From contig CAJZHL010000001.1 in assembly GCA_916048055.1 (NCBI GenBank), forward strand, positions 1,982,421 through 2,046,420: DNA of 64,000 bases. The letters run 5' to 3'. Shown here piece after piece: positions 7,683-64,000 of this stretch; position 1 is the stretch's first letter; each line of letters begins with the position of its first letter. The translations under genes were made by a program, and so were the position numbers. The DNA is from Pedinophyceae sp. YPF-701. Taxonomy: Eukaryota; Chlorophyta; Pedinophyceae. The notes under the pieces were generated by a model. The model was not told the origin of the DNA, made no database searches, and saw nothing but the letters and a program-made list of their open reading frames with translations.

Positions 7683-8358
7683 GCCGCTCGCGCGCTGCCA
7701 GACGATCGGTTCCGCGGTCGGGGCGCAGGGCCCGACACAAGTCGAGCCAGCGCCTGCTGCACACGGCAGAGAGCCGCCCGTCAGCGTGGTTCGCACGGGC
7801 GCAACGCACAGCCGATAACTGCCCGACGCGCGGTCGCCTCCGGCGCACTGTGCTCCCCCGCGTGCGGCCGCGGCGGGCGGGGGAGGGGCGTGCGAACCGG
7901 CACCGTGTCAGGTGGATCGTTCCGGCCGCGTGCGCCCTGCGGGTGCGGCACATGGGGCCGCGGGGGCGCCCGCCGCGATGTAAACCCGCAGATCGTTCGT
8001 AGCGAGCGACGACGACGACGCGAGCTTAACTGTGACCGCAGGGCCCTGAGCGCTGTGCCGCGCAGTGCAGAGTGCCGACACGCGGCGCTGACAGGACCGC
8101 CTGGCCGCGCGGAGGCGTTGCCGCAACCAGGCTTCGGTCCGGGGCCCCGCGTCGGGCGGCTCCGGGAACGTCTGCGACTGAGACGGGCCGCATGGTGAGG
8201 CTGAGCAGCTTGCGTTTGATTCCATCCCGCTGGCTGTGCCCTCGCTCGAACGCCCGAAAAGCCGCGGCACGCGCTCGGTAAGTCGTAAGTCGCTGTGCGC
8301 GATCACAATCCGCCGGATTGCGGACGTCAAACGTGCAGTTGCGCGATCGGTAGCAGCG
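7683..8358. promoter_or_regulatory. Divergent intergenic region (DUF1499 / PRP5)
   Basis: These 676 bp separate two start codons on opposite strands, so they must contain both promoters. No TATA-like element or other defined motif was recognised. Confidence 0.4.
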
Positions 8359-13641: not shown

Positions 13642-15875
13642 CTACTGGGCGACGTGCACGGAGGCGAAATCCATGGACACCTCCTGCAGCTCGATGTCGC
13701 GGTGCTGTTGTTTCTTGCGCTCCAACACCGCCAGCTCCACGTCCGGGGGCGTGGCCGCGGGCGACTTGGAGAGGCGGCCCTCCCCGCTCGGCGTGAAGGT
13801 CCTGTCCATGTGCCCCTGGAACGCCTGCCTGGGTCTCGAAATCTTCGGCGGGAGCTGCGGAGGGGGCGCGATTCGCGCTTGTTCAGATGATGCGACAGCG
13901 CCGGGCCAGAACATGTCGTTGCACGGGGCGACGTGCGGCGCCCACCTCCTCGGCCATCTCCTTCCACTGCGCGACCCAGCCCACGGTGCGCGACACGGCG
14001 AAGAGCACGGTGTACATGGACATGGGGATGCCCAGCGCGCGCAGGACGATGCCCGAGTAGAAGTCCACGTTCGGGTAGAGGTTGCGCGCGACGAAGTACT
14101 CGTCGTTCGTCGCGATCCGCTCGAGCTCGATCGCGACGTCGAGCAGCGGGTCCTTGAGCTGCAGGTGGCCCAGGACCTCGCGGCACACGTCCTGCATGGC
14201 GCGCGCGCGCGGGTCGTACGTCTTGTACACGCGGTGCCCGAAGCCCATGAGGCGGAAGGGGTCGTCGCGGTCCTTGGCGCGCGCGACGTACTCCGGGATG
14301 CGGTCCGGGGTGCCGATCTCGATGAGCATCTTGAGGACGGCCTCGTTGGCGCCGCCGTGCGCGGGGCCCCACAGCGTGGCGATGCCCGCGGCGATGCACG
14401 CGTACGGGTTCGCCTGCGACGACCCGGCGCTGCGCACCGTCGACGTGCTGGCGTTCTGCTCGTGGTCCATGTGCAGGACGATGATCTTCTCGAGGGCGCG
14501 CGCGAGGACGGGGTCGAGCACGAACGGCTCGGTGGGGACGGCGTGGAGCATGTACAGGAGGTTCGCCGCGTAGCTGCGGGGGGCGCGCGCGGTCGGGGCG
14601 GCGGGTGAGAGGACGAGCGCGCAAGCGGGCGCCCAGGCGCCGCGGACGTGCGGCGCGGGGGAGCGGCACCTGAGGCCCTTCTTCGGGTAGACGCACGGCT
14701 CGCCGATGCTGTGCTTGTACGCCATGGCGGCCAGCGTGGGCACCTTTGCGATGAGGTTGATGCACGCGTCGTCGCGCAGGCGCGGGTTCCAGATGTCGTC
14801 GAACGGGAAGAAGGCGGAGAGCGCGCCGACCACTCCGACCATGATGGCCATCGGGTGGGCGTCGCGCTTGAACCCCTCGAAGAACTTGGTCAGGCTGACG
14901 TGGACCAGCATGTTGGTCTCAATGCGGTGCCGGAACACCCCCTGCGCGCACCGGAAAGGAGGGCGCGGCGTAAAGCGCTGCGGCGGCGCGGAGCGGGCGG
15001 GCGCGCGCGGCCGTCGGGAGCGCACCCGTTCGTGGAGCGAGGGCAGGTTGCCGTACAGCAGAAGGAAGCAGCTGTCGATCCAGTCGCCCTGCTGCGCGAG
15101 GTCCAACACGTCGTACCCGCGGTACAGCAGCCTGCGGGAGGCGTCGGGCGCCTCGCGGGCCGTCAGCCGGGGGGGGAGCGGGATGTGGAGGCGCACGCGG
15201 GCGGAGCCAACCGCCGCCCGACCCACCTGCCGGCCTTGCCGTCGATGAACGTGATCGTGCTGCGACATGCGCCTGCGACGGGAGCCCATCATCGCTGGAG
15301 GCGCGTCAGGAGGCGCTCGACATCAGAAGTGGACTCGCGCAGGGTCGGCGGGCGTGTGGTTTGTGGCAATGTGGCAGACCCATTGCGTCGCCCCCAGCGA
15401 GGTTCGCGCGGACAGTGCAGCATGCAGGCAGGAGCACAGCGATCACTGTGTCGCGGCGCGGCCTTCGTCGTCGCAATGAGCCGCGAGCACGGCGCGCTGG
15501 CGGCCGCGGGAGAGCAGCGGGGGAATCATGCCGATGATCAGCGCGCCTGACCTGTGCTCATGAAACCGGGGTCGAACGTACACACGCCCGTCTTCCCGTA
15601 CAGCGAACGGACGTCGACGAACCTTGCGCCGGAGGCGTCCTGCGTCGCTCGAAGCACGCGACGGCCTCGTTCTCATGCAGTGCGCGCAACCACCGCGGCA
15701 GGCTGATGCGGTCGGGACGTACCCGGAACGCGGGGAGCGGGATCTCCTCGCCGTCCGGCAGCCTCAGCGTCGCGTCTCCGAGCGGCGTCGGGGCGCTCGC
15801 CGACCACCCCTGCACCTCCTCCTGCGACCTGCGCGCCAGCTGCAACCGCCGTCGCGTCCCTTCTGGCCCCGACAT
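13642..15875 (-). CDS. Citrate synthase, bacterial-like type II (glyoxysomal CSY class)
   Basis: Seven exons (15875-15723, 15639-15552, 15272-15227, 15131-15026, 14941-14670, 14573-13946, 13854-13642) give 501 aa. Each junction restores family sequence, for example [11 protein letters not shown] joined to [14 protein letters not shown] joined to [12 protein letters not shown]. Catalytic residues are present: His in [11 protein letters not shown], His in [14 protein letters not shown] and Asp in NVDFYSG. The CoA/substrate block [12 protein letters not shown] and the terminal RPRQ are also present. The enzyme condenses acetyl-CoA and oxaloacetate to citrate. Sequence style matches bacterial and plant peroxisomal enzymes rather than the mitochondrial type. 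After RPRQ there are about 60 residues, some 40 more than usual, including a charged segment ([14 protein letters not shown]). No clear PTS1 or PTS2 is visible, so localisation is open. The start at 15875 is provisional. Confidence 0.9.
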
Positions 15876-22179: not shown

Positions 22180-25100
22180 TCACTTCTTGAACATAGAGAG
22201 CATCCTCCACGTGACGGCGAACCCGCCGAACACGTTGATCGCCGCGACCGACGTGGCGACCGAGCCGAGCACGAAGGTGCCGCTCTTGTCGCCGGCAACG
22301 AGCAGGAGCATGCCGCCGAGGATGACGACGCCGGACACGGCGTTCGACACGGACATGAGCGGGGTGTGCAGCGAGGGCGTGACGCCCCAGATGATGTGGT
22401 AGCCCCCGACGCAGGCCAGCACGAAGATGGCGAGCTGCTCGGCGAACGACGTGGGGAAGAACGCGGCGATGAGCGCGAACACCGCGATGCCCACGCAGAA
22501 CGCGAGCCACATCTCCGGCGACATGCCCAGCCAGTACAGGTCGTAGTTCGAGGGGCCCTCCTCCTTGACAGGCGCCGCAGTCTTGGCGGCGGCCTTGGGC
22601 GGCGGCGGGGGCCCGCCGGGCGCCTTGTACGGCCACATCTTCTGCCCCATGTGGGAGATCATCATGGGGCGGATGGTGGCGTCGTCGGTGTCGACGGCCC
22701 AGGCCTTCTTCCCGCCCTTGGACATGTGCTCGATGAGGCGGTACAGGTTGGCGGCGTACATGGCCGAGGCCTGGGGCGCGAGGCGGCCGGGGAGGTCGGT
22801 GTAGCCGAGGATCTTGACGCCGTTGGGCGTGATGTACTTCTCGCCCGGGCGCGTCTCCTCGCAGTTCCCGCCCGACATGGCGGCGATGTCCACGATGACC
22901 GACCCGGGCTTGAGGTTGGCCACGGCCTGCTTGTTGATCAGCATCGGCGCGGGCCGCCCGGGGATCTGCGCGGTGGTGACCACGATGTCCACCTCCGTGC
23001 ACTGCTGCTCGAACAGCTCCAGCTCCTTCTGGTAGTACTCCTCCGACATGACCTTGGCGTACCCGCCCTCGCCCGCGCCGTCCTCCTCGAACTCGACCGT
23101 GATGAACTCCGCGCCCATCGACTTGACCTGGTCCTTCGTCTCCACGCGCGTGTCGAAGCACCGCACCTCGGCGCCCAGGGCCACGCCCAGGCCCGCCGCG
23201 GCCAGGCCCGCCACGCCCGCGCCCAGCACGAGGATCTTCGCCGGCGGGTACTTGCCCGCGGCCGTGATCTCCGGCGCCAGGAAGCGGTCGAACTCGAACG
23301 CCGCCTCGATGATCGCGCGGTGCCCCGCCAGCTTGCCCACCGACGACAGCGAGTCCAGGCGCTGCGCGATGGTGGTGCGCGGCACCAGGTCCATCGACAG
23401 CAGCGTCACGCCCGAGTCCACCGCCGCCTGGATGAGCCCCGTGGCCGCGTCCTTGTTGTTGAAGTCCCCGTTGGGCCCCACGTACGACACCACCACCTGC
23501 CCGTTGCGGCCCATGCGCACGTCCTCGGGGCGCGGGCGCGCGACGCCCATGACGATGTCGGCCTTGTCGTACACGCCGCGCGCGTCCGGGACGACCGTGG
23601 CGCCCGCGCGCTGGTACGCGGCGTCGGTGAAGGCCGCGCGCGAGGCGGCCAGGCCCGCGCCCGACTGCACCACCACGTCGAAGCCCCACTCGGCGAAGCG
23701 GGCGGCGATCTGCGGCGTGATGGCCACGCGGACCTCGGGCTCGCGCTCCTTGACCACGCCGATGGTCTTCCCGGCGCCGATGCCCTCCCCGGCGCCCGGG
23801 CGCTTGGGCTCCTGGAACTCAAACAGGTCGGGCGAGGTCTTCTTCTTGGGCGCGGCGGCGTCGCCGTTCTGGGCGCCCGCGGCCTTGAGCGCGGCGGGGT
23901 TCTTCTCGCCGAGCTGCTTGACGAGGGCGTCGCAGTTCTTCTTGGCGTCGCCGAAGAACATGCGCGTGTTGTCGTTGAAGAAGAGCGGGTTCTCGACGGC
24001 GGCGTAGCCCTGCGCGAGGGAGCGCTTGAGCACGACGACGGTCTTGGCGCCCCACACGCGCAGCACGGGCATGCCGGCGATCGACGAGGTCGGGTCCGTC
24101 TCCGCGGCGGGGTTGACCGTGTCGTTGGCGCCGATGACCAGCACCACGTCCGTCTCCTCGAAGTCCGAGTTGATCTCGTCCATCTCGAGCACGATGTCGT
24201 ACGGCACCTTGGCCTCCGCGAGCAGCACGTTCATGTGCCCCGGCAGGCGGCCCGCGACGGGGTGCACGCCGAAGCGCACGTTGCACCCGTTGGCGCGCAG
24301 GAGCGACGTCATCTCCTGCACCGCGTGCTGCGCGCGCGAGACGGCCATGCCGTACCCGGGCGTGATGATCACCGAGTGCGCGCGCAGCAGGATGTCGGTC
24401 AGCTCGTCCAGCTCGACGGGGTTGGCCGTCTTCTGCTCCACGGGGCCCTCCGCCTTGGCCGCGGCCTTGCCGCCCGAGCCCTGCCCGAAGCCGCCCATGA
24501 GCACGTTGGTGATCGAGCGGTTCATGGCCTTGCACATGACGTACGAGAGGATGGCGCCGGAGGACGCGACGATGGCCCCGGCGATGATGAGCAGGTTGTT
24601 GGCAATCATGAAGCCCGCCGTGCAGCCCGACACGCCCGAGAGCGAGTTCAGCACGGAGATCACCACGGGCATGTCCGCGCCGCCGATCGGGAGCACGCTG
24701 ACCACGCCGAGGAGCGACGACACGCCCGTGAGCGCCAGGACCAGCCCGATGGACCCCCCGCGCCCGGCGTCGATGACCTGCTCCGCCTTCGGGCCGAAGA
24801 TGCCCTCCAGCGTGGGGTCCGTGGGGTCCGACGGGTACTCGATGCCGTACCCGGAGAGGCCCGTCACGAGCATGAGCGCCACGGACGCGAGCTGCAGCGT
24901 GATGATGAGGAAGCGCAGGAGGCCGATGGGGAGCACCGAGCCCTTGATCTTCTCGGAGAGCTTCCCGACCGCGATGAGCGAGCCCGTGAAGGTGATCATG
25001 CCCACCCAGACCGTGAAGAGCAGGAAGCCCAGCTGCAGCCGCGACTCCCCCGGCTCGAGGCCCACCTCGGCGATGGGGTCGACGTACAGCGCGATGGCCT

Positions 25101-26041
25101 CGATCGCCGACGCGAGGCCGCCGAACGCGTTCAGCAGCCCGACCAGCTGCGGCATGCCCGTCATCTTGACCGTCGCCGCCAGCGCCACGCCGATCGCGCC
25201 GCCGCCCACGATGCAGATGGGCAGCACCCAGTAGGCCGCCGAGGGGACCACCTCCGGCGCCAGGTCGACGTCCGCGACCTCGAGGTTGAACCACAGGTAC
25301 GTCGCCACGATCGCGATCACCATGCCCAGGAAGCCCGAAATCGTGCCGCGCGGGGCCGACGGGATGGCTGCGGGCGCGGGGGAGGCAGCGCGACAATGGG
25401 GTCAACCGGGCGGGGGCGCGGCGGGGCAGCGGGGGGCGCGTCGGGGCGCGCGGGACGGCGCGGGCGACCGGGCGGGCGCCGCGCAGGGTGCGCGGCGCGC
25501 GGGCGGGGGTCGCGCGCGGGAGGCGTCGCCGCCACGAGTTAGGTACTGGCAGGATGGGGCGCCCGGGCGGGCGGTGCGGGCGGGAGCGCGGCGGTGCGGG
25601 GCCGCGCGGAGGTGCGCGATCAGCAGGGAGGCGGGCGCGGCGGAGGAGCGGCGCGCGCAGGCGGCGCGGGGGGCGGGCGGGGGCGAGGCGGGGCGAGGAG
25701 GAACATTGCGGGCGAGGCGCGCGGTGGTGCGGTGGGGGACTCACTCGTGAGCCCGATGAAGCCGTAGATGAAGAGGGCGAAGCACAGCACGAACACCACG
25801 CCTGCGGACCGGGGCCGGGAGCGGGGGCGCGTGAGCGTGCGAAGAGGTCGTTCGTAGGTGCCTCGAGGAGATGGTGGCGGCAGGCCAGCCAGCTCGCCAT
25901 GGAGGCCGCGCGAGCAGCGCGCCGGCGAGGAGAAACGCGCTTGGGCGCGGGAACGTCGCAGGCGGCGCGTCTCGCGCTCGCGGCGGGCGGGGGCGCACTC
26001 AGCCAAGAAGACGGCTCGTAGATAAAGACGTTGGCCAAGAC
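22180..26041 (-). CDS. NAD(P) transhydrogenase, beta-alpha fused single polypeptide (5' end not resolved)
   Basis: Resolved exons are 26041-25999, 25801-25745 and 25367-22180, giving at least 1095 aa. The beta-type half comes first: transmembrane helices ([30 protein letters not shown] and more), then the NADP-binding domain III ([52 protein letters not shown]). A linker containing [19 protein letters not shown] joins it to the alpha-type half: NAD-binding domain I ([37 protein letters not shown]) and the remaining helices ending [10 protein letters not shown]. The enzyme couples hydride transfer from NADH to NADP+ to inward proton movement across an energised membrane. The last exon is a single 3.2-kb block while two tiny exons (43 and 57 nt) encode the first helix. 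A targeting peptide and start codon must lie in an unrecognised exon upstream of 26041. Confidence 0.93.
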
Positions 26042-46914: not shown

Positions 46915-48550
46915 GGCCGCGCGGCGCACGCTGCAGCCGATCGGTCTGTACCGCGACGCGGCAGGGGCCGCATGACATGGACAGGCGAGCGCAGGCCACT
47001 GGTGGGTGCGCCTGCGGCAACAGGCAGCCATTTGCATGCAAGGTCTGGGGCTGGATATTCGGTACGCATAAAACGAGCTGCGCATGAGAAGAGGGCCCGG
47101 TCTGTGCGCCCGTGTGAGCCGAATGATGCAGGGCGCCTCTCTCGTCAGCGCACATGGTACCAGTGTATGAACCGGCTGTCGACCAGACTCAGGCCTGCAC
47201 CCAAGACTTCGCGCACCGTCTGGCCTCATGGGAGCAGAGACGCGGAACGCCGTGCGCGCTGTCACGGCATCGACAGTGGGGGCCTTTCTGTCCCCCGGGA
47301 CCGGTCCGCTGCACCCGCTGTTCCTCGCAGACAGCGCCTTCCCCGCAGGCGCCAGCGAATGCGTCGCCTCCGAGGCGGATGCCGGCAGCGACGGGATCTT
47401 GCGCCACCGCACATTGCCATCCCAGACCGGTAGTTCCCCTGCGCGCCGCGCAATCGAAGCGCGATCGGGGGGTGGGGCGAGGCGCACAAAGGTGGTCTCG
47501 TGCGCCAGTTCTCGACGCATGGTCGATGACATGAGAGCACAGGACCGGAAAGAGCAAGTGCTCTTTGTTGAACGCCGATTCTTTCAGCGCCTGCGCGTCT
47601 CTCAGGCATCCTGCTGCCCACCATCGCGAGTCTGTACATATTATGGCCTGATACGCGACGTACATCTCCGAAATTCGGCCCTGGGGAGCTCTGAATGAGA
47701 AAATTCGCCCTTGGCAATCGTGCTCGCCGCTTGGATCACATGCACGACACAGCCACTCTGCTCGGGCAGCCAGACGCTCAGTGACTCTCGAAGATGGCGC
47801 GAGGCAGAAGCAGCAAAGGTTGCGCTCTCTGCAGTGAGCTCTTTTCTCTTCAACCGCCACAGATGGTCCTGGTTCGCTGGCACGCCGGGCTTCCAACGTC
47901 TTCGTTCGCCTGACCCGCCGTGATCGGCCCCGCGCAAAAGCATCGCGTGGGCCTGCCGAGTGCAGCGCCTGCCTCCGCGCAGCCACCCAGAGCCCCCCGC
48001 CGGGAACCCCGCCCCCCTGAGCTCAGCAGGCGGCCATGCCCTGGCGCTGACGCCTCCCGGCTAGATTGGAGCGCGGGACGGGCAAGAGATCATGTTTGGC
48101 CATTCGCTCGCACCGTCACGGCATCTGCGCGTCCCTGCGGGTGAGAGCCTTCGCGACCCTGCAACTCAGGCAGCTCCACGCGGCGTGTACGTGCCTGAAC
48201 GCCCGCCGGGCAGCTTTGGTCGGCAGCTTCTTGAAAGCTTGTACATGCATGACGACGCGCTTCTGACGGGCACGGCCCGTTCCATCCCTGGAAACGCCCG
48301 TTCCCGCCTTGCATGAGAGCTGAGCGTGTTGGCTTGCGGTCGTGAGCTTCGTGCAGAGCGGAGACCGCGGAGACGGTTGTCATCTCGGCTGCGTCTGACC
48401 TCGGTGGGATCGCGACAAGACCAGCACAGGAGCATCGACGTGCCCAGCATTCGCTGCGGCACCGCACTTGCTGCTCGGAGCCGCTGGACGCGGCTGCTGA
48501 GGAGATTCCCCGCGAAGTTGCGCCGCTCCGCGCCCAACGATTGAGCAGAG
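46915..48550. other. Long intergenic stretch in the LRR array, no supported gene
   Basis: These 1.6 kb have lower GC than the housekeeping block. Open frames on both strands lack recognisable domains. I found no remnant of the LRR family by eye. Confidence 0.45.
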
Positions 48551-50571
48551 ATGGTGAGATCAAGCCGCCGCCGGAGATACCGCTCGTGTGCCGACGCAGC
48601 CGCACAGGCTCCCATGCAGCTTGCGCCGGTTGCGAGACGCGCACGTGGGACCACCACGATTCTGCCCTGACATACGCTTTTCGCCACTTTGCGCAGACGC
48701 CCGGAGACGAGGGCGAGCTCTTCGGCCGCGTCCTGCGGGAGGCGCCGTGCGTGCTGGACATGCTCTCAAACGCCGACAAGGCCAACCTGGCCGCCACGTG
48801 CGGGGACGCGGCAGAGGCGGTGCTCCGGGGCTGCCGGGCGGTGCGGAAGGTCCGCAGGGACGACCCGGTGCTGCGCGTCTTGGCTCGTAAGATGGAGGAC
48901 GGGCCGTGCCGTGGGGAGCTGACGGCGTGCGGCGTGAGGGTGGCGGCGACGGACGCGGCGCCGCTGCTCAAGGGGCTGGAGTGCGTCGAGGGCGACCTGC
49001 CCGAGGCCGGCGGCCGAGGGGAGGTGTTCTGCCGCAAGTGGATCGCGCTGGTGGGGGGACTGTTGCGCGGGGAGTGGGGGAGCGCGGCGCGCGTGACGGG
49101 GCTGAGCGTTCCGGCCCGGGGGGGGTCGAGGAGCACCACGGGGGAAGCGCACCTGCAGCTCCAGCGCGTGCTGCAGCTCCAGCGCGTGCTGCAGGCGCGT
49201 GCAGTGTGCGACCACCTGCGCTTCCTGCAGATCTCCTCCATTGTGGGGGACCTCCCGTCGTACCGGATGGAAGTCGAGACCGCCGCGCTGCACCGTGACA
49301 TGCGCGGCTTGTCGGCGCTGCAGCACCTGGAGCTCGACTCGCCCCCCGCGTGCTGGGGGCGGCTGGTCGCCATCGGCCGCCTGACGACGCTCAAGCTGTC
49401 GGGCGTGACCTTCGGCAAGCCGGGCGAGACGCAGGCGTTCCTGGCCGGGATCCAGCAGGCAAGCTGCCTGCGGCGCTTGGAGATGGCGGGCGTCAGCCTC
49501 AATGTCGACGAGTGCGGGCGGGCGGCGCAAGCACCGCCGGCGGGCCTGGAGGAGGTCGTCCTGACGGCGAGCGACGAGCCGTTCAGCTGGGCGGACGCCA
49601 CGAGGCTGCACACGCTGGAGCTGCGCGACATGTCGACGATCTCCGAGCCGACGTGGCGGTCGATCGCGGAGCTGATGCAGCGCAGCAAGGCGCTGCGACG
49701 GCTGGTGCTCGAGAGCATGTTCGTGGCGCCGGACGCGGATGGCAGCGCTCAGGCGGTGTTCACGGCGCTGGCCCGCAGCACGGTGGAGGTGTTCGATTGC
49801 CACTGGGAGCCTGCGGGGGCGCAGGATGACGATGAGGACGAGGAGCCGGTCGTGGACGTCTCGGAGGCGATCGCGGTGGCGCTGCTCAGCAACGCGACGC
49901 TGCGGGAGGTCGCCGTGTCGAGCGGTCGGCTCAGCCTCTTGCGCGTCGGTTTGTGGGCGGTGGCGGAGGCCCTGCAGCAGAACACAACGCTGCGCAGGCT
50001 GCGAGTCGATGGCTGCCGTGTCGGCGACGCGGACGCCACTGCGATCGGTCGCATCCTGAGCTGCAACACGTCGCTGCTGGAGCTGGAGCTCGGGGACAAC
50101 GACCTGACGACTGACGGCGTCGCGTGGATCGCACAAGGCCTGCGCGAGAACCGCACGCTGCGGGCCCTGCGTCTCTGCGCTTGCGACGGCGTGGACGACC
50201 TGTGCGTGCAGCTGCTGATGGACGCGCTGGTCTCGCAGTGCGACGGAGTGGAGATCCTCGAGATCAGCGACTGCATGGTCACAGACGACGGCGCCGAGTG
50301 CATCGCAGACGCGCTCGAGCAAGACGCCGTCGCGCTGAAGGAGCTCGTGTTGCAGAATCACAAGTTCGACACCGTCGGGGCGGCAGCCATCGCGGGCGCG
50401 CTGAGAAGCAACACCAAGCTTGCGTGGCTCGACGTGTCGACCGAGATGGGGATGACGGAGGACGCGTTCGAGATTCTCTATGCGGCGCTGGACAAGGACA
50501 GGAAGCTGAGGATACGGGTAGAGGGGGACGTCTGCAGGTACCGCTGGTGCGACGGTTTTCCGAGGCTTTGA
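48551..50571 (+). CDS. F-box-like/LRR protein, array copy 4
   Basis: Exons 48551-48553 (ATG followed by GTGAGA) and 48697-50571 give 625 aa. N-terminal module: ELFGRVLREAPCVLDMLSNA, then KANLAATCGDAAEAVLRGCR and VLRVLARKMEDGPCRGEL; here the usual TCWS is TCGD. LRR segments follow (LQHLELDSPPACW, LTTLKLSGVTFGKPGETQAF, LHTLELRDMSTI, LRRLRVDGCRVGDADATAIG, LLELELGDNDLTTDGVAWIA). An 18-bp in-frame tandem duplication (49153-49188) repeats LQLQRV. An acidic insert DDDEDEEPVVD lies near 49830-49860. The translated length equals that of copy 5. Confidence 0.72.
49153..49188 (+). repeat. 18-bp in-frame tandem duplication in LRR copy 4
   Basis: CTGCAGCTCCAGCGCGTG occurs twice in direct succession and a partial third copy (CTGCAGGCGCG) follows. 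It expands the protein by six residues without a frameshift. Other array copies lack it. Confidence 0.9.
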
Positions 50572-52195
50572 TTGAAGGTGTTGAGTCAGTGACAGTTGTC
50601 GGCGCAGCAGTCGTCGGGACCGCAGCAGCCCGCGCCCTAGCGCGGCGCGCGTGTGATTCGGGCATCACGCTCGCTGAGCCTGCGGCGCGAAGTCCTTCGA
50701 CATCGCAAGAGCCCCCCGAGGCCGCCGCGCGCTGCACGACTTCAGTGCGTTTCACGGTCGCTAGATCGTCGAGTCCGGCCGAGATGCGACCACTGCCGCA
50801 CCGAGCAGTATCTCTTCAGCGGTGCATCCAGTCGCGCGCCGACGGACCTCGGCGGGGGACGGCGTCGTGGAGAGCGGTTGCGTAGAACACGACGCTGCGG
50901 CATCTCCTGCTGCTCAAGTGGTTCTGGTCAAGAACCTCTGCGCTCGGCAGCGACCTGTCGTACGCGTGGTCGTCAGAAGGCGGGCGGCTGTTGCAGCCGG
51001 ATCGCGCCACCGCATGGTGCGAGACACGCACGCACTGTGATGATGATGATGACGGCTTCGGAGGCGCGGCGCAGGACCGGGCACGCTTATAAATTCTGCC
51101 AAGCGGCGGAGCATACGGGAAGGCGGGCCCAGCGGACTCCTTTTGCCGGCAGGCAGGCTGTCGAGGATGACGCCGCTTGCGCAGCAGGTGTTGCATGCGC
51201 AACGGTACGCGCTCGCGAGGCGGCACTTGAAAGTCCGCCACATGCCCTGACGTCTCTCCACAAGACCTGACGGCAGCTGAGAGATCAGCGGCTACGCAAC
51301 CGCGGACGACGGGGGTCAGCCAGTCAACGTCGAAGCAAAGCACGCTGGCGGATAGCGCATCCATGGAAGGTTGCAGTGGTGCGACCAGCGCGCCGCGTGG
51401 CGCGCTGAGCGGCTTGTTGGATCGAACGGTCCGGCCGCGAGCTGCGACGATGCTTGTGACTCGACGCCGGCCTGAGCGGTGCACCTGGGGGTCAACCAAC
51501 AGTCGCGCGATGTCGCGAGCTCACTGGCCCCGCGCGGAACTCGCCTGCACTCGTCAGCGCAGACGGCGGCCGCGGCGCTGACTTGAACCTCCACGCCTGC
51601 CGCTTTGCGTGCCTGCCCTGCACTGCGCAACAACGTGAGGCGCCGGTGATGACGAGGCGATGTCCTGCGTGGCGTGCACCGCACAGCTGCGTGCGGACGG
51701 CGTGACCGTCGAGGCTGGTGCCGTGCGACGCTGAAGGCAGCCCGTGGCTGTTTTTTTGCCGGCTGCGGCTTGCGCTGCGCCTTGTGGCAGAATGCGTCGC
51801 GCCTGGAATGGGTCGACCCCGACGTGTCGCTCGAGCACTCGATGCACGTCCGGCGTCTCGACGCAGAGCCGCCAGGCGCAGGCAGTCGGTCAGTCCGTGA
51901 AGGTGCACGCCCTGACTGCGTCACGCCCCTCCCATGCGGTCGAAGCGGGTTCAACGCGCTGCTCGGGCGTCATCACGGCACGCGCCGGCAGTGGACATCC
52001 ACTTCATGTCGAACGTCATCGGCGAGACCAGGTTCAGGTCCTGAGAAAGGTCTCAGCGACCGCGTTTCGCCGAGGTGTGCTCCTGAGAGCTTTAGACGGC
52101 GTCTTGCGTGGTCCACGTGCCTCAAACGCGCATGGCCGCGAAGGAGCTGATACTCTCAGCATAGGACTGCGAGGTCGGAATATCCGTTGACGTAC
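50572..52195. other. Intergenic stretch in the LRR array
   Basis: No supported gene. A short TGA/ATG triplet repeat lies near 51038-51053. From about 52050 on, weak similarity to the region upstream of copy 6 begins and becomes near identity at ~52196. Confidence 0.45.
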
Positions 52196-52647
52196 CGCAT
52201 CGGTCGCGTTCGCGCTTCGCAGAGCTGGGGCGAGTTCACTCGAGCGCGCGGGAGGCCGTGGAGGGAGCGTTGCGGCGCTCAAGGGCGGCCGGCGACGGCG
52301 CTGGGACTGCGTGAGGTCGCGTTTGAGGGCGGCGGCGTGGCCGGCGCCCGTGCGTCGCGCGCGTCGTCGAGCTAGGTGCCGGGGGAGCTGAGCAGCGCGG
52401 GACGCGCTTGTTGAGGGCGCATTCTGGCGTGGCTGCGGCGAACCCGACGGAGCGTCGACCAATCATGGTGAGCGGCCCACCTGAAGGGGTTGCAACAGCT
52501 GCTTGCACGCTGCCCGGGCGTGCACCTGCGTCCTCAACGTATCGCAGAGACAACACGCACGACAGCTGCACTCGACGGCCTGCGGGCGGAACACCCCGGC
52601 CTCGGTTTGCACGCTGACATCCGTCCGGCATCCGCCCCTGCTCGCAG
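52196..52647 (+). repeat. Duplicated 5' region of LRR copy 5 (pair of 55370-55819)
   Basis: This block is nearly identical to 55370-55819, including the putative promoter, the start codon and the 180-nt first intron. Differences are scattered single bases and small indels. It shows that copies 5 and 6 arose by a recent segmental duplication including regulatory sequence. Confidence 0.85.
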
Positions 52648-54522
52648 GGGTCTCGGAGACGGAACGATCTCCTCGACCACGTGTTGCGCGAGGTGCCGAG
52701 CGTGCTGGACAGGCTGTCCGACGAAGACAAGGCGAGCCTGGCGGCGACGCGATGGAGCACGCTGGAGGCGGTGCTGCGCGGGTGCAGGGCGGTGCTCAAG
52801 GTCCACAGGGACGACCCGGCGCTGCAGGTGCTGGCGCGGCGGATGGAGGAGGGGCCGTGCCGGGGGGAGGTGGCGATGTGCGGGGTGCGGGTGGCGGCGA
52901 CGGACGCGGGACTGCTGCTGGAGGCTGCTCGCAAGGTCGCGGGGGACCTGCCGGACGTCGCCAACCACCCGACTGAGCGCAACCGCAGATGGATCAACCT
53001 GGCGTGGGCGCTGACGTGCGAGGAGGAGGACGGGGAGGCGCGCGTGACGGGGCTGAGCGTGCCGGGGTGGAGCTGCGCCGAGCACGCCACGATGGAGCTG
53101 GCGTCGGTCGTGCAGATCTTTGCGTCGCCGCCCGCCAGGGAGCACCTGCGGCGCCTGAGTATGGCGCTACAGCACGCTCGGCAGCCTCTGACCAAGGGAC
53201 GTATCGAGCTGCTGACGAAGGCGATGCGCGGGCTGTCGGCGCTGCAGCACCTGGAGCTCACTGCGCCACCGACGTGCTGCGTGCACTTGATGGGGGAGTA
53301 CAGCCGCCTGACGACACTCAAGCTGGCGAACATCAGGTTGAGTCCCGGTGAGACGCGGGCGCTTCTGGACGGTCTGGAGCGGGCGAGGCAGCTGCGGCAC
53401 CTGCGCCTACATCGGTTCAACCTGGGCATGGAGGCCGAGACAACGACCCGGGCTCCGCCGGCGGGGCTGGAGGTGCTGGATCTCGTAAGCAGCACATGCC
53501 CGTACGATCTGCGGGATGGCACGAGGCTGCGCGCGCTGGAGCTGCGCGGTATGCAGGTGCCGTGGGAGGAGGTTGCGGCGCTGATGAGGCGAAGCAAGGA
53601 GCTGCGGCGGGTGACGCTCGACTCGAGCCGCCTGGATGCGGGGTCGGTCTGCGCGGTGTTTTCCGCGCTGGAGCGAAGCACGGTGGAGGTGTTTGACTGC
53701 GCATGGAGCTTTGATGACGAGGCTGAAGAAGAAACCTGCTCGGCTCTGACGGAGGCGCTGGTGTCGGCGCTGCGCAACAACACGACGCTGCTTGAGCTCG
53801 CCCTAGACTTCGACTCTGAGGAGCCCGACGATCTCTTCCTGGACGTGCCGAAGGTGGCGGCGGCGCTGAAGGACAACACGACGCTGCGGCGGCTGAAGCT
53901 GCACAGCATCGCGGTTCGAGACAGCGACGTGGCGGCTATCGGTGAGGCTCTCGCAAACATGCGGTCGCTGGAGGAGCTGGACCTGGCCTCGGGCCTCATG
54001 TCGGGGAAGGGGCTGCGACTGGAGGACAGCTACTTGCGCGTCTTGCGGCTGCGGAGGGCCTGGGCCGTTGGCGACGAGGGCGTGCGGGAGGTGATGCGCT
54101 CGTTGAGCCGCAGACGTCGCGTGCAGAAGGTCGACACGCTGCAGATCTCGGACAGCGAAATAACCGACAAGGGGGCGAAGCACGTCGCGGCGGCGCTGAA
54201 GGAGCGCGGATGCACGCTGCGTACGCTCAGCCTGGCAAACATGCCCTGCAACGAAGTCTGCATCGGCGACGAGGGCGCGGCGGCCATCGCGGACGCGCTG
54301 CGACACAACCGCTCACTGGTGTCGCTCAACCTGTCGGGCAACAGGCTGACGGACCGTGGGCAGGAAAGCCTGGCCGCGGCGCTTGCGGACAACACCACGC
54401 TGCGGCACCTGGACGCGTCGGGCTGTGACGGGGGGTCGGTGCGGGCGAGGGACATGCTCTACGCGCAGCGGTATGCCATTGGCATGCGACAGATGTGTGC
54501 GCGTAGCACGTTCCGTATCTGA
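52465..54522 (+). CDS. F-box-like/LRR protein, array copy 5
   Basis: Exons 52465-52467 (ATG followed by GTGAGC) and 52648-54522 give 625 aa. After the start, GSRRRNDLLDHVLREVPSVL leads into the family module (DRLSDEDKASLAATRWSTLE, AVLRGCRAVLKVHRDDPALQ, VLARRMEEGPCRGEV). LRR segments include LQHLELTAPPTC, LTTLKLANIRLSPGETRALL, LRALELRGMQVPWEEVAALM, LRTLSLANMPCNEVCIGDEG and LVSLNLSGNRLTDRGQESLA. Reading straight through the first intron hits a stop, so splicing is required if this ATG is used. It is nearly identical to copy 6 over the N-terminal module, after which the two diverge quickly. Confidence 0.75.
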
Positions 54523-55369
54523 CGCTACTCGTGCAGAGCGATCGGGAGGCCGCGCGGTCGCCAGAGCAGGGGAGGCCTGCGTGTGAGGAGGCAGCAGGGC
54601 ACGAGGAGCGCACGTGTGTGTGAGCTGGAGCGATATGATGGGCCCGACGCGCTGATGTGATGTCGAGGCGCAGCCAGCTGTGGTGTCTGACATGGTGCCC
54701 CACGAGTCGCTGCGACCACGTTGCCCGGCGGCGTCGACCCCGCTCGAGTCACCGACAGACTGTCTGTCGGTGCGACTAAGTCACGACGCAGCCAAGGTGC
54801 TTGTTCTCAATCTTGTGCTCTCGTGATGCGTGTTCAAGCCCCTCACGCTGTTCGGCTCGTCCGTGGTGCTGTGTGCGCAGCGCACTCACGCCAGTTCCCC
54901 TTGAATCGCACCAGCGATGCTTTTTTATGCAGATCGGTGTTTTTGTGGATGGCCGCGGGCTCCCGAAAGCCTCGCGCGGCGGGCTCGAGCACCACCGCGG
55001 ACTCCGGTACCACCGACCGATGCGCCGCTGCAGAGATGTGCGGCGCGCGCGCCTGCAGTCGACGATGTGTGCGAGTCGGGCGCCCTCGCGTGTGTCCCCC
55101 AGCGCTCGGTGCGACTGGAACGCGCTGCAGGGTCGTTGTTGGTGCACGCCAGCAACGGCACAGCCATTCGATGTAGACGGGCATCAGTGAGACACTTGAC
55201 ATGCGCTGAGTGGTCTCCAGCAAACGCGTTTGTCGCCGAGGTGCGCTCCCAGGAGCATGAGGAGCGTGTTGCGGGTCCGGAGTAGCTCGAACGCGCGTGA
55301 CCTTGTGCCGGCCCTGGTTCTGTGTATGTGGCTGCGGCATGCGAGATCGAAAGATTGCGTTGACGTCCT
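54523..55369. other. Intergenic stretch in the LRR array
   Basis: No supported gene. It contains a perfect inverted repeat at 54751-54771 and, near the end, weak similarity to the flank upstream of copy 5. Confidence 0.45.
54751..54771. repeat. Perfect 10-bp inverted repeat
   Basis: ACCGACAGAC and its exact reverse complement are separated by one T. Partial outer pairing (AGTC before, GACT after) could lengthen the stem. It lies 230 bp after the stop of LRR copy 5. A transcript hairpin or a protein-binding palindrome are both possible. Confidence 0.8.
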
Positions 55370-55819
55370 GCATCGGTCGCGTTCGCGCTTCGCAGAGCTG
55401 GGCAAGTTGATTCGAGCGCGCGGGAGGCCTCGGAGAGAGCGTTGCGGGGTTCGCGGGCGGCCGGCGACGGCGCTGGGAGTACGTGGGGTCGTGTTTGAGG
55501 GCGGCGGCGTGGCCGGCGCCCCTGCATCGCGCGCGTCGTCGAGCTAGGTGCCGGGCGAGCTGAGCAGCGCGGGACGCGCTTGTTGAGGGCGCATTCTGGC
55601 GTGGCTGCGGCGAACCCGACGGAGCGTCGACCAATCATGGTGAGCGGCCCACCTGAAGGGGTTGACACGGCTGCTTGCACGCTGCCCGGGCGTGCACCTG
55701 CGTCCTCAACGTATCGCAGAGACAACACGCACGACAGCTGCACTCGACGGCCTGCGGGCGGAACACCCCGGCCCCGGGCTATGTGCTGACATCCGTCCGG
55801 CATCCGCCCCTGCTCGCAG
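55370..55819 (+). repeat. Duplicated 5' region of LRR copy 6 (pair of 52196-52647)
   Basis: Second copy of the promoter, start codon and intron block. The start codon ATG at 55637-55639 and donor GTGAGC are preserved, as is the acceptor CTCGCAG ending at 55819. Confidence 0.85.
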
Positions 55820-56824
55820 GGGTCTCGGAGACGGAACGATCTCCTCGACCACGTGTTGCGCGAGGTGCCCTCCGTCCTCGACCAGCTCTCGGACGCCGAC
55901 AGGGCGCGCCTGGCGGCGACGCGATGGAGCACGCTGGAGGCGGTGCTGCGCGGGTGCAGGGCGGTGCTCAAGGTCCACAGGGACGACCCGGCGCTGCAGG
56001 TGCTGGCGCGGCGGATGGAGGAGGGGCCGTGCCGGGGGGAGGTGGCGATGTGCGGGGTGCGGGTGGCGGCGACGGACGCGGGACTGCTGCTGGAGGCTAC
56101 AAACAAGCTGGGGGGCGGCGACCTGCCCGATGTCGCCGGCCACCCGACTGAGCGCAACCGCAGCTGGATCAACCTGGTGTGGGCGCCGACGTGCGAGGCG
56201 GTGGGCGGGGAGGCGCGCGTGACGGGGCTGAGCGTGCCGCCGACGAGCAAGAACGACCACGCCACGATGGAGCTGGCGGCGGTGCAGCACATCCTTGCGG
56301 CGCGCCCCGCCAGGCAACACCTGCGGCGGCTCAAGTGGGCGTCATGGGGCGCGAGTCGGACTTGGGACAGGGGAGGCACCGGGCTTTTAACTGCAGCTTT
56401 GCGCGAACTGTCGGCGCTGCAGCACTTGGAGCTCGTGGCGACGCCAACGAGCTGGGTGCACGTCATCGGGGAATACACCCGCCTGACGACGCTGGAGCTA
56501 TCGCACGTGACGCTGAGCGCACACGAGATGCGGGCGCTTGTGGACGGTCTGGAGCAAGCCAGACAGCTGCGGCATCTGCGCTGCGGGGCGTCCTGGGTGG
56601 TGACTTGCTGGAGGCACTGCAGCACGGCCTGTGCCGGGGCCGGAGGGCATCACGCCCCGGAGACAAGCGGGAAGTCGGGAGCTGGACGGCACGCAAGGCG
56701 ACGACGGCCCTCGAGCGTGGCGGGGACCTGGCGCGGCTGCAGCGTCATCGTACCGTCGGGGTGCTGCGACCGCGGCGGGCGCGAGGCGTCGCCGTCGCTC
56801 GGTCGTTCGCTGTGCGTGACGTGA
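55637..56824 (+). pseudogene. Truncated F-box-like/LRR gene, array copy 6
   Basis: Exon 1 is 55637-55639 and exon 2 starts at 55820. The frame stays open to a stop at 56824 (335 aa), but family similarity ends near 56582, about 255 residues in, after VDGLEQARQLRHLR. The N-terminal module is almost the same as in copy 5 (LDQLSDADRARLAATRWSTL, HRDDPALQVLARRMEEGPCR). After the break the translation becomes low-complexity arginine/glycine-rich. All C-terminal LRRs are missing. It may be a pseudogene or encode a short decoy-like protein; a broken duplicate is the simplest explanation. Confidence 0.7.
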
Positions 56825-59116: not shown

Positions 59117-59137
59117 GTCTTAGGTCTTAGGTCTTAA
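59117..59137 (+). repeat. Interstitial telomere-type repeat
   Basis: Two full CTTAGGT units plus a partial one (GTCTTAGGTCTTAGGTCTTA), same orientation as the terminal array, 36 bp after the ABCC stop. Degenerate GTCTT motifs precede it. It is likely a relic of a former chromosome end or of telomere insertion during repair. Confidence 0.8.
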
Positions 59138-59659
59138 TTTATTAGAGGTGGGTTGTATGGGTTACACACCACTTTGGCGCGCGATTGCGGCGCGCTCGCG
59201 GCTCGCACGGCCGCCGCGGGCGCGGCATGCGCGCACCCGAGGTGATTTACGTGATCTCCAGGCGCGCCGCGTCCACCGACGGTCATGTCGCGGAGCTACG
59301 ACGCGAAGAGTGCAAAAGTTGATGGGTTACACGTGGGTTTCACACAGTTTGGCGGGCCGTGGCGCCGCCGTTGAGCGTGTCGGTGGAGTTTCCGCGGCAC
59401 GACAAATATGCTGACACTTGCGACTACCACCTGCGAGCGCGACAACGACGCCGACTGCAGATGTCGCGGCGATATCGCGGCTGAAATGGGTCTGATGACA
59501 CTTTATATTTTATATACGGCAGCCCAGGGCGGCTTGCACCCTGCAATCTCCGGCGTCGGACGCCCACGGGGCACGCGCAGGTAGCGCGCGTAGCAGCGAG
59601 CACGCCTCGGCTGCTGCCTGGGGTCCAGCGGCAACAGTTGACCAGCTGAAACACAACAG
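59138..59659. other. Subtelomeric unique sequence
   Basis: No gene is supported. TGGGTTACACACC followed by TTTGGCG (59157-59180) recurs in diverged form as TGGGTTACACG followed by GTTTGGCGGG (59322-59354). An AT-rich patch (TTTATATTTTATATAC, 59500-59515) is among the least GC-rich sequence in the window. Confidence 0.5.
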
Positions 59660-59874
59660 CCTACCGGAACGACCTTAGCGACCCAGCGGAAGGCACGCCT
59701 TAGCGACGAATGATTAGGACTTAGACCTTAGGCATTAGCGGCCAACCATGGAAGCGCAACCAGCTGCCGCTGGGTGCCAGTCGTGCATGCTTGTTGCCTG
59801 TGCTGTACATACCGTTTTCGACGCTCCGGGCGGGCCGTGACCCCCTGCTTTGCACGCTGCGCGATACTCCGCAG
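59660..59874 (+). repeat. Diverged partial T block (T0) preceding the array
   Basis: CCGGAACGACCTTAGCGAC at its start and ACCATGGAAGCG with ACCAGCTG further on match the distal half of the T block (compare 60549-60640), but it is shorter and diverged. Several degenerate TTAGG motifs occur here. It directly precedes the first S block. Confidence 0.65.
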
Positions 59875-60270
59875 ATTTTTAGAGAATGCCCCCAATGCCC
59901 CCAAGGGGTACTTTTCGGCCACTGGCGGTCCGGTGTCCGCGACCCCGGGGCGGATTGTGTTAGCGCTGTCGGCGTTCGACATCGGGACGTCCCACGAGGT
60001 GCGCGGCGGCACGCAGCGCGACCGGGCCGCGGAGCTACGGGCCGCCAAAGTGGCGGGGCTTGTCATCAGGGGGTGGATTTCGGGCTCTGGCGTCGCGGTG
60101 CGGGCGTTGGTGGTGCTGAATCGCGTGCCCTATTGGTGGAATACGCCGCCACGCCCGCCGCGGCAGCGAACGCGAGCAGCGCACGCGACACGGCGACGGT
60201 AGAGCGGAAAAGTGCGTGTGACATCGGCCGTCAGATACCAACTTGGGTGACTCGGCAGTCACGAAACAGA
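59875..60270 (+). repeat. Subtelomeric S block, copy 1 (396 bp)
   Basis: Starts ATTTTTAGAGAATGCCCCCA and ends CAGTCACGAAACAGA. Differs from copies 2-5 at only a few positions (for example an A/G near 59933 and T/C changes near 59975). Its end carries a perfect hairpin, GTGACTCGGCAGTCAC (60247-60262). Confidence 0.95.
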
Positions 60271-60946
60271 GTCTAGTCGTGACTCGGCCAGATATATATC
60301 TGATCAAATATGCCTCGTGACTCGGAAGATACCCGTCAAATAGGCATATCTGCGCCTATTTGTCGGTGCACGCTTTCAAATATAGACCACGGCGGGCGCG
60401 AGACGGACCGGGTCGCGATGGTGACCGTGTGCGGTGACCGGGGGTCAGACCACAGGTCGGTGCGTCACCACGGCAACCCAGGGTCGGCTGCGGGGTGACG
60501 TCGTGCTGATGTCAGTCATCGAGCCGGAACAGCAGGAGCAGCAGTAGACCTGCCGGAACGACCTTAGCGACTAACAATTAGGACTAATAACGTTAGGTTT
60601 TAGCGACGTACCACGGAAGCGGGACCAGCTGTCCGGCGCGGGTGTCGCGTGTGCTGTGTTGTGCACATGTTGTCGTCTCTTGCGGGCGTTGCTGGGTCCG
60701 CTGCAGCCCGCAGCACCTGCCGTGCGTCGTGACGCGCCGCGGAGTGCCGCTCGGCGCGCACGGCGGACCCTCCGACCGGCTGCCAGCGCGGCTGTCGTGT
60801 GTTGTTGTGCTCCCTGTGTTGGCCGCGCTGCGCGCGGCGCTGCACCGCTTTTCGAGCCGCTCGACGCTTGCGCTGCGTACTGGTGCGTGCTGTGGGCGCG
60901 CTGCAACGCTCGGCGGGCCGATTGGCGACGTTGTGTCCTCCTTATG
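60271..60946 (+). repeat. Subtelomeric T block, copy 1 (676 bp)
   Basis: Starts GTCTAGTCGTGACTCGG. The first ~100 bp are AT-rich and packed with symmetry: the palindrome CAGATATATATCTG (60289-60302) and a hairpin AAATAGGC/GCCTATTT with an 8-nt loop (60338-60361). GTGACTCGG occurs at 60279 and 60317, plus once at the end of the S block. The middle contains degenerate TTAGG motifs (60570-60602). The distal half is GC-rich. Confidence 0.95.
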
Positions 60947-61342
60947 ATTTTTAGAGAATGCCCCCAATGCCCCCAAGGGGTACTTTTCGGCCGCTGGCGG
61001 TCCGGTGTCCGCGACCCCGGGGCGGATTGTGTTAGCGCTGTCGGCGTCCGACACCGGGACGTCCCACGAGGTGCGCGGCGGCACGCAGCGCGACCGGGCC
61101 GCGGAGCTACGGGCCGCCAAAGTGGCGGGGCTTGTCATCAGGGGGTGGATTTCGGGCTCTGGCGTCGCGGTGCGGGCGTTGGTGGTGCTGAATCGCGTGC
61201 CCTATTGGTGGAATACGCCGCCACGCCCGCCGCGGCAGCGAACGCGAGCAGCGCACGCGACACGGCGACGGTAGAGCGGAAAAGTGCGTGTGACATCGGC
61301 CGTCAGATACCAACTTGGGTGACTCGGCAGTCACGAAACAGA
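60947..61342 (+). repeat. Subtelomeric S block, copy 2
   Basis: Exactly 1072 bp after copy 1. Same boundaries and hairpin end. Confidence 0.95.
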
Positions 61343-62018
61343 GTCTAGTCGTGACTCGGCCAGATATATATCTGATCAAATATGCCTCGTGACTCGGAAG
61401 ATACCCGTCAAATAGGCATATCTGCGCCTATTTGTCGGTGCACGCTTTCAAATATAGACCACGGCGGGCGCGAGACGGACCGGGTCGCGATGGTGACCGT
61501 GTGCGGTGACCGGGGGTCAGACCACAGGTCGGTGCGTCACCACGGCAACCCAGGGTCGGCTGCGGGGTGACGTCGTGCTGATGTCAGTCATCGAGCCGGA
61601 ACAGCAGGAGCAGCAGTAGACCTGCCGGAACGACCTTAGCGACTAACAATTAGGACTAATAACGTTAGGTTTTAGCGACGTACCACGGAAGCGGGACCAG
61701 CTGTCCGGCGCGGGTGTCGCGTGTGCTGTGTTGTGCACATGTTGTCGTCTCTTGCGGGCGTTGCTGGGTCCGCTGCAGCCCGCAGCACCTGCCGTGCGTC
61801 GTGACGCGCCGCGGAGTGCCGCTCGGCGCGCACGGCGGACCCTCCGACCGGCTGCCAGCGCGGCTGTCGTGTGTTGTTGTGCTCCCTGTGTTGGCCGCGC
61901 TGCGCGCGGCGCTGCACCGCTTTTCGAGCCGCTCGACGCTTGCGCTGCGTACTGGTGCGTGCTGTGGGCGCGCTGCAACGCTCGGCGGGCCGATTGGCGA
62001 CGTTGTGTCCTCCTTATG
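61343..62018 (+). repeat. Subtelomeric T block, copy 2
   Basis: Exactly 1072 bp after T copy 1. I saw no differences from copy 1 when comparing by eye. Confidence 0.95.
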
Positions 62019-62414
62019 ATTTTTAGAGAATGCCCCCAATGCCCCCAAGGGGTACTTTTCGGCCGCTGGCGGTCCGGTGTCCGCGACCCCGGGGCGGATT
62101 GTGTTAGCGCTGTCGGCGTCCGACACCGGGACGTCCCACGAGGTGCGCGGCGGCACGCAGCGCGACCGGGCCGCGGAGCTACGGGCCGCCAAAGTGGCGG
62201 GGCTTGTCATCAGGGGGTGGATTTCGGGCTCTGGCGTCGCGGTGCGGGCGTTGGTGGTGCTGAATCGCGTGCCCTATTGGTGGAATACGCCGCCACGCCC
62301 GCCGCGGCAGCGAACGCGAGCAGCGCACGCGACACGGCGACGGTAGAGCGGAAAAGTGCGTGTGACATCGGCCGTCAGATACCAACTTGGGTGACTCGGC
62401 AGTCACGAAACAGA
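62019..62414 (+). repeat. Subtelomeric S block, copy 3
   Basis: Ends ACGAAACAGA and is followed directly by the next S block, without an intervening T block. Confidence 0.95.
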
Positions 62415-62810
62415 ATTTTTAGAGAATGCCCCCAATGCCCCCAAGGGGTACTTTTCGGCCGCTGGCGGTCCGGTGTCCGCGACCCCGGGGCGGATTGTGT
62501 TAGCGCTGTCGGCGTCCGACACCGGGACGTCCCACGAGGTGCGCGGCGGCACGCAGCGCGACCGGGCCGCGGAGCTACGGGCCGCCAAAGTGGCGGGGCT
62601 TGTCATCAGGGGGTGGATTTCGGGCTCTGGCGTCGCGGTGCGGGCGTTGGTGGTGCTGAATCGCGTGCCCTATTGGTGGAATACGCCGCCACGCCCGCCG
62701 CGGCAGCGAACGCGAGCAGCGCACGCGACACGGCGACGGTAGAGCGGAAAAGTGCGTGTGACATCGGCCGTCAGATACCAACTTGGGTGACTCGGCAGTC
62801 ACGAAACAGA
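62415..62810 (+). repeat. Subtelomeric S block, copy 4 (tandem to copy 3)
   Basis: Begins 396 bp after copy 3, so S is tandemly duplicated here. Because 396 is divisible by three, a plus-strand open frame through S continues without a shift. Confidence 0.95.
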
Positions 62811-63486
62811 GTCTAGTCGTGACTCGGCCAGATATATATCTGATCAAATATGCCTCGTGACTCGGAAGATACCCGTCAAATAGGCATATCTGCGCCTATT
62901 TGTCGGTGCACGCTTTCAAATATAGACCACGGCGGGCGCGAGACGGACCGGGTCGCGATGGTGACCGTGTGCGGTGACCGGGGGTCAGACCACAGGTCGG
63001 TGCGTCACCACGGCAACCCAGGGTCGGCTGCGGGGTGACGTCGTGCTGATGTCAGTCATCGAGCCGGAACAGCAGGAGCAGCAGTAGACCTGCCGGAACG
63101 ACCTTAGCGACTAACAATTAGGACTAATAACGTTAGGTTTTAGCGACGTACCACGGAAGCGGGACCAGCTGTCCGGCGCGGGTGTCGCGTGTGCTGTGTT
63201 GTGCACATGTTGTCGTCTCTTGCGGGCGTTGCTGGGTCCGCTGCAGCCCGCAGCACCTGCCGTGCGTCGTGACGCGCTGCGGAGTGCCGCTCGGCGCGCA
63301 CGGCGGACCCTCCGACCGGCTGCCAGCGCGGCTGTCGTGTGTTGTTGTGCTCCCTGTGTTGGCCGCGCTGCGCGCGGCGCTGCACCGCTTTTCGAGCCGC
63401 TCGACGCTTGCGCTGCGTACTGGTGCGTGCTGTGGGCGCACTGCAACGCTCGGCGGGCCGATTGGCGACGTTGTGTCCTCCTTATG
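62811..63486 (+). repeat. Subtelomeric T block, copy 3
   Basis: Near-identical to copies 1 and 2; a C-to-T difference near 63278 and a G-to-A difference near 63440 are visible. The AT-rich palindrome cluster is conserved. Confidence 0.95.
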
Positions 63487-63882
63487 ATTTTTAGAGAATG
63501 CCCCCAATGCCCCCAAGGGGTACTTTTCGGCCGCTGGCGGTCCGGTGTCCGCGACCCCGGGGCGGATTGTGTTAGCGCTGTCGGCGTCCGACATCGGGAC
63601 GTCCCACGAGGTGCGCGGCGGCACGCAGCGCGACCGGGCCGCGGAGCTACGGGCCGCCAAAGTGGCGGGGCTTGTCATCAGGGGGTGGATTTCGGGCTCT
63701 GGCGTCGCGGTGCGGGCGTTGGTGGTGCTGAATCGCGTGCCCTATTGGTGGAATACGCCGCCACGCCCGCCGCGGCAGCGAACGCGAGCAGCGCACGCGA
63801 CACGGCGACGGTAGAGCGGAAAAGTGCGTGTGACATCGGCCGTCAGATACCAACTTGGGTGACTCGGCAGTCACGAAACAGA
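63487..63882 (+). repeat. Subtelomeric S block, copy 5, abutting the telomere-type tract
   Basis: Same boundaries as the others. The sequence after ACGAAACAGA switches from the T-block start (GTCTAGTC) to the terminal repeat (GTCTTAGG), sharing only GTCT. Confidence 0.95.
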
Positions 63883-64000
63883 GTCTTAGGTCCGTGTAAG
63901 GGTCTTAGGTCTTAGGTCTTAGGTCTTTAGGTCTTAGGTCTTAGGTCTTAGGTCTTAGGTCTTTTAGGTCTTAGGTCTTAGGTCTTAGGTCTTAGGTCTT
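63883..64000 (+). repeat. Terminal telomere-type array, unit TTAGGTC
   Basis: After one degenerate unit (63883-63903), 13 tandem CTTAGGT units run to the end of the window. Eleven are 7 bp, one has an extra T (8 bp) and one has two extra Ts (9 bp). The G-rich strand runs 5'-to-3' toward the right edge, as expected for a chromosome end. T-number variation is typical of telomerase slippage. The sequence differs from TTTAGGG, TTTTAGGG and TTAGGG. Whether the molecule ends here or the window was cut cannot be told. Confidence 0.85.

Follow-up and report, generated by a model that had tools for sequence, protein, structure and literature searches.

A terminal TTAGGTC array outside a subtelomeric repeat block as a probable eukaryotic telomere

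Telomere units change often. One group of telomerase-made telomeres shares a TTAGG core and includes TTAGGG, TTTAGGG, TTTTAGGG, TTAGG, and TTAGGC. The haptophyte Phaeocystis globosa is reported to carry the canonical hexamer, given as CCCTAA (TTAGGG) (PMC11347835). Three described systems come closest to the sequence analyzed here: (i) the nematode unit TTAGGC, which has two G followed by a C and is the nearest unit of the TTAGG group (PMC10767889); (ii) the (TT)TTTAGG telomeres of Chloropicon, an alga as the source organism probably is, which contain two G only and in which the number of T varies within the genome (PMC12301720); and (iii) the hymenopteran TTAGGTCTGGG telomeres, which contain the word TTAGGTC (PMC9693754, PMC10632776).

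The window analyzed in this study, that is, the whole stretch of 64 kb, has a GC content of 71.0%, with values of 73.9% at positions 1-36000, 68.0% at 36001-59100, and 64.6% at 59137-63886. GC contents of 73.25% and 69.8% have been reported for the pavlovophyte haptophyte Diacronema lutheri, in which 45% of the genes are single-exon (PMC8379373), and the green alga Prasinoderma coloniale (PMC7455551), respectively. The window is eukaryotic, since it encodes a spliceosomal DEAD-box helicase of the DDX46/PRP5 type (8182-12213, + strand) in one open frame, with an E value of 8e-203 to DDX46. Further eukaryotic genes code for importin-13/transportin-3-like domains and an RRM protein, and the long stop-free frames of the window measure 1072 to 1344 amino acids. 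The GC content and these long intronless frames would be compatible with a pavlovophyte haptophyte such as Diacronema lutheri at least as well as with a green alga; in the former case, the telomere unit would have changed within the haptophytes. Two metabolic genes lie on the - strand. The NAD(P) transhydrogenase (22183-25401) is encoded in one frame in which the PNTB part precedes the AlaDh/PNT part, and the citrate synthase (13883-15292) is, among solved structures, much closer to bacterial and peroxisomal enzymes than to mitochondrial ones. The part of the window beyond approximately 37 kb contains a number of leucine-rich-repeat frames, some of which are near copies of each other; the subtelomeric members of this gene family at 48346-56821 consist in part of copies that are 73-93% alike and lie about 3.2-4 kb apart. 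These genes are followed by an ABC transporter gene (PF00005; 58017-59078, + strand) of which the C-terminal part is present and the 5' end is apparently cut off; it ends 41 bp before an interstitial TTAGGTC tract described below. A search of the window against Rfam returned no match at the gathering threshold.

The window ends in an uninterrupted TTAGGTC array (63905-64000, + strand) of 13 complete units followed by TT. The 13 units (63905-63998) comprise 11 copies of TTAGGTC, one TTTAGGTC (63926-63933), and one TTTTAGGTC (63962-63970). An isolated TTAGGTC unit (63886-63892, + strand) lies proximal to the array and is set apart from it by the 12-bp interruption CGTGTAAGGGTC (63893-63904). The G/T-rich strand, read 5' to 3', runs outward to the end of the window, and all 17 TTAGGTC words of the window are on the + strand; 16 of them fall within the last 4.9 kb, where the window end accounts for 14 and the interstitial tract for 2, and the remaining word stands alone at 36705. 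The unit count, the analysis with TRF (score of 173 at period 7), and the strand of the words thus confirm the claim of the sequence-only reading that the window ends in 13 tandem units in the orientation of a right chromosome end. The start at 63883 given in that reading is correct as a coordinate, but it takes in the isolated unit, which CGTGTAAGGGTC separates from the array proper. TRF also reports the array as a 37-bp period (score of 193), since the two long-T units are the fourth and the ninth of the array; two such variants are too few to distinguish a higher-order repeat from slippage.

Among all heptamer classes, TTAGGTC alone forms perfect tandem runs of at least three copies within the 64 kb. 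The ungapped 28-base match to (TTAGGTC)n amounts to 28/28 in the terminal array, as compared with best matches of 16/28 (+ strand) and 17/28 (- strand) at positions 1-59100, values that are within the range of 15-20 obtained with Markov-resampled sequences (n = 60). The unit departs from the canonical (TxAyGz)n telomere pattern, in which T and A are followed by a run of G. Strand folding, under a model that excludes G-quadruplexes, predicted a hairpin in neither strand of the array.

A block of subtelomeric repeats is usual, although not universal, on the inner side of telomere arrays, and such a block is present here (59875-63486, + strand). In it, a 1072-bp repeat occurs as three full-length copies (59875-60946, 60947-62018, and 62415-63486), the outer two of which differ from the middle one by 3 and 2 mismatches, and as one shortened copy of 396 bp (62019-62414). 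A last copy (63487-63886, + strand) is truncated after 400 bases, precisely where it adjoins the TTAGGTC sequence. In the comparison of this copy with that at 60947, 398 of the first 399 bases are equal, and the first difference past the junction is at 63887. Homology to the repeat beyond the junction was considered and rejected, as 1336 of 2000 shuffled sequences align equally well. When the 1072-bp repeat was searched for outside the window, neither a 40-base word from it in IMG/VR viral contigs nor a megablast comparison with phage records gave a match.

The shortened copy ends at unit position 396 and the junction with the array is at unit position 400, so that the two breakpoints are within 4 bases of each other. 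Both are situated inside a 12-base loop between the 8-bp inverted arms AGTCACGA and TCGTGACT. A junction hairpin was nevertheless dropped as a meaningful feature, because the energy predicted for this stretch does not stand out among the 215 windows of the unit (ranks 121 and 137). The proximity of the breakpoints is one coincidence, noticed post hoc; it may mean that ends break, or acquire telomeres, time and again at this point of the subtelomeric repeat.

The interstitial tract TTAGGTCTTAGGTCTTA (59120-59136, + strand) lies at the inner margin of this block and has the same orientation as the terminal array. For the 28 bases surrounding it, TTAGGTC is the single best unit among 2344 heptamer classes, with 26/28 matches, as compared with 14/28 for TTAGGG and 18/28 for TTTAGGG. 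A second, degenerate tract with a 7-bp periodicity, GATTAGGACTTAGACCTTAGGCATTAGC (59712-59739, + strand), matches TTAGGTC at 20/28 positions, a score that was reached by none of 300 resampled subtelomeres and, among resampled sequences of 59 kb, by 1 of 60; a better fit to the tract is given by 13 other heptamer classes. Judged by the recurrence of TTAG at a 7-base beat, it may be a decayed telomere repeat.

The word TTAG itself is enriched in the subtelomeric region. The 1072-bp unit contains 6 copies, against a resampled mean of 1.6 (of 500 sequences generated by Markov resampling, 1 had as many), and the proximal 394 bp also contain 6, against a mean of 1.3 (reached by none of 500). In the gene part TTAG is scarce, with 5 occurrences in 59.1 kb versus a resampled mean of 20. 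Four of the copies in the unit are concentrated in a TTAG-rich core of 60 bp (60556-60615, + strand), the fit of which to TTAGGTC (16/28) is no better than chance.

We consider it likely, on the basis of one end and 115 bp, that the array is a telomere made by telomerase with the unit TTAGGTC. Several observations argue for this reading, among them the following: (i) the succession of a gene region, a multigene family, a repeat block, and an outward-facing G/T-rich array is the order of a eukaryotic chromosome end; (ii) the last 1072-bp copy breaks off at the very point where TTAGGTC begins; (iii) a TTAGGTC tract in the same orientation is found at the inner edge of the repeat block; (iv) the array contains internal T-number variants; and (v) TTAG is enriched in the subtelomeric region and scarce among the genes. 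The better fit of 13 other heptamer classes to the tract at 59712 and the chance-level fit of the TTAG core to TTAGGTC count against it. The telomere interpretation of the sequence-only reading has thus gained the support of the repeat block, the interstitial tract, and the cut-off last repeat, and on the whole it is upheld in part, with the location of the array at the physical end of a chromosome, its origin by telomerase, and the use of the same unit at other ends being probable extensions of these data.

The array could instead be a proximal variant block, that is, TTAGGTC homogenized locally at the inner edge of a telomere whose true unit is another one, such as TTAGGG or TTTAGGG. Variant repeats are found at the base of many telomeres, and the inner 115 bp alone are in view here, with the CGTGTAAGGGTC interruption at their base. 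TTAGGG, TTTAGGG, and TTTTAGGG, however, are absent from both strands of the whole 64-kb window, and the interstitial tract at 59120 is also composed of TTAGGTC, which a variant block does not predict. We regard this explanation as unlikely.

Somewhat less likely still is an ordinary intrachromosomal heptamer microsatellite in which the window, or the assembly, breaks off by chance. As a control, we compiled 107 loci by scanning for TTAGGTC in three tandem copies, 101 of which are stretches in bacterial genome records and 6 in IMG/VR, and scored them for array length, T variants, and the distance to the locus ends. The bacterial arrays (loci L007-L107) have the same unit in up to 16 tandem copies, and arrays of at least 10 units were present at 6 of the 107 loci, with a maximum of 16. 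In addition, at 4 of the 107 loci (L039, L079, L080, and L093) no more than 10 bases separate the array from a true contig end; 2 of these 4 have the telomere-like orientation, and 3 of them belong to the six longest arrays. Since an array thus abuts a contig end at 4 of the 107 loci, the mere presence of a heptamer array where an assembly ends does not prove a telomere. Other features of the window speak against a microsatellite, namely, the lack of any other heptamer class repeated three or more times, the position of the array outside a subtelomere-like block, on whose inner side TTAGGTC recurs in the same orientation as a second tract, and the number of T in its units. An extra-T unit inside the array was seen at 1 of the 107 control loci, over both scans, and at none of the six with long arrays, as compared with 2 among the 13 units of the window array. 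Nine more control loci have an extra T in the first unit only (10/107 at any position), where it possibly belongs to the flanking sequence. The near absence of internal T-number variants from the bacterial arrays favors telomerase slippage over microsatellite growth as their source in the window, and the earlier description of these variants as resembling slippage is borne out by the control.

No second TTAGGTC telomere was obtained among the control loci. Several of them showed a distribution of their own. Two metagenome-assembled genomes, Acidobacteria SJ750 and Clostridiales Nc350_bin216 (contigs JADZCY01... and JAISYE01...), contain many separate short TTAGGTC arrays (e.g., L009, L037, L015, and L018), as if the sequence were a dispersed repeat, and a Bartonella record (L045) has two internal arrays, at 4283-4373 (13 units) and 4796-4879 (12 units), approximately 0.4 kb apart.

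An error of sequencing or assembly, such as nanopore miscalls of TTAGGG or TTTAGGG repeats, is very improbable: telomere repeats are known to be miscalled in such reads, but the miscalls described in that report are TTAAAA, CTTCTT, and CCCTGG, with no TTAGGTC heptamer among them (PMC9414165), and TTAGGTC also makes up the interstitial tract at 59120, a position at which errors typical of read ends would be unexpected.

If the array is a TTAGGTC telomere, the end of the window would coincide with a eukaryotic chromosome end or reach a few bases into it. It would follow that the template of the telomerase RNA is changed, as the sequence-only reading had proposed; this template would contain at least 8 nucleotides of a circular permutation of GACCUAA (e.g., CUAAGACCUAAG). 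The DNA word GACCTAA does not occur on the + strand of the window. Slippage on the A run of the template would account for units in which the number of T rises to three or four. The terminal repeat copy ends in ...AGAGTC(T); the telomere would have been seeded inside the 1072-bp repeat at this 3' end, the GTC of which can pair with such a template in the manner of de novo telomere addition. The prospects appear evenly balanced that TTAGGTC is present at all chromosome ends of the species and in its wider lineage, perhaps the pavlovophyte haptophytes, whose sister class has TTAGGG in Phaeocystis, with a rewritten template that breaks the G run with TC.

A TTAGGTC telomere would have several consequences. 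It would demand, along with the changed template, telomere-binding proteins that accept the unit, and its two-G repeats would make a three-layer G-quadruplex impossible. Knowledge of the unit would furthermore allow the telomerase RNA of the lineage, of which we found no description, to be sought with an exact string; the long telomere unit of Allium served the search for the plant telomerase RNA in the same way (PMC12133305). It would also permit chromosome ends to be recognized in assemblies of the source lineage.

Our literature searches, which included five circular permutations (GACCTAA, CCTAAGA, CTTAGGT, TCTTAGG, and TAGGTCT) and had TeloBase and supplementary files outside their scope, retrieved no TTAGGTC heptamer telomere, and the main text of the Diacronema lutheri genome paper contains no word beginning with "telomer" (PMC8379373). 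Units with two G are already known (TTAGG, TTAGGC, and Chloropicon TTTAGG), and the TTAGGTC heptamer would be the first unit of its kind known to us. The proposed telomere differs from that of Chloropicon, whose unit has no TC and whose T number is far more variable (PMC12301720), and from the hymenopteran telomeres, in which TTAGGTC is part of an insect unit of 11 bp that contains GGG (PMC9693754, PMC10632776). With the TTAGG group it has in common a short tandem unit, the TTAGG core, a G/T-rich strand directed outward, subtelomeric repeats on the inner side, and variants in the number of T; it is distinguished from this group by a unit that ends in TC after two G and thereby has no run of three G.
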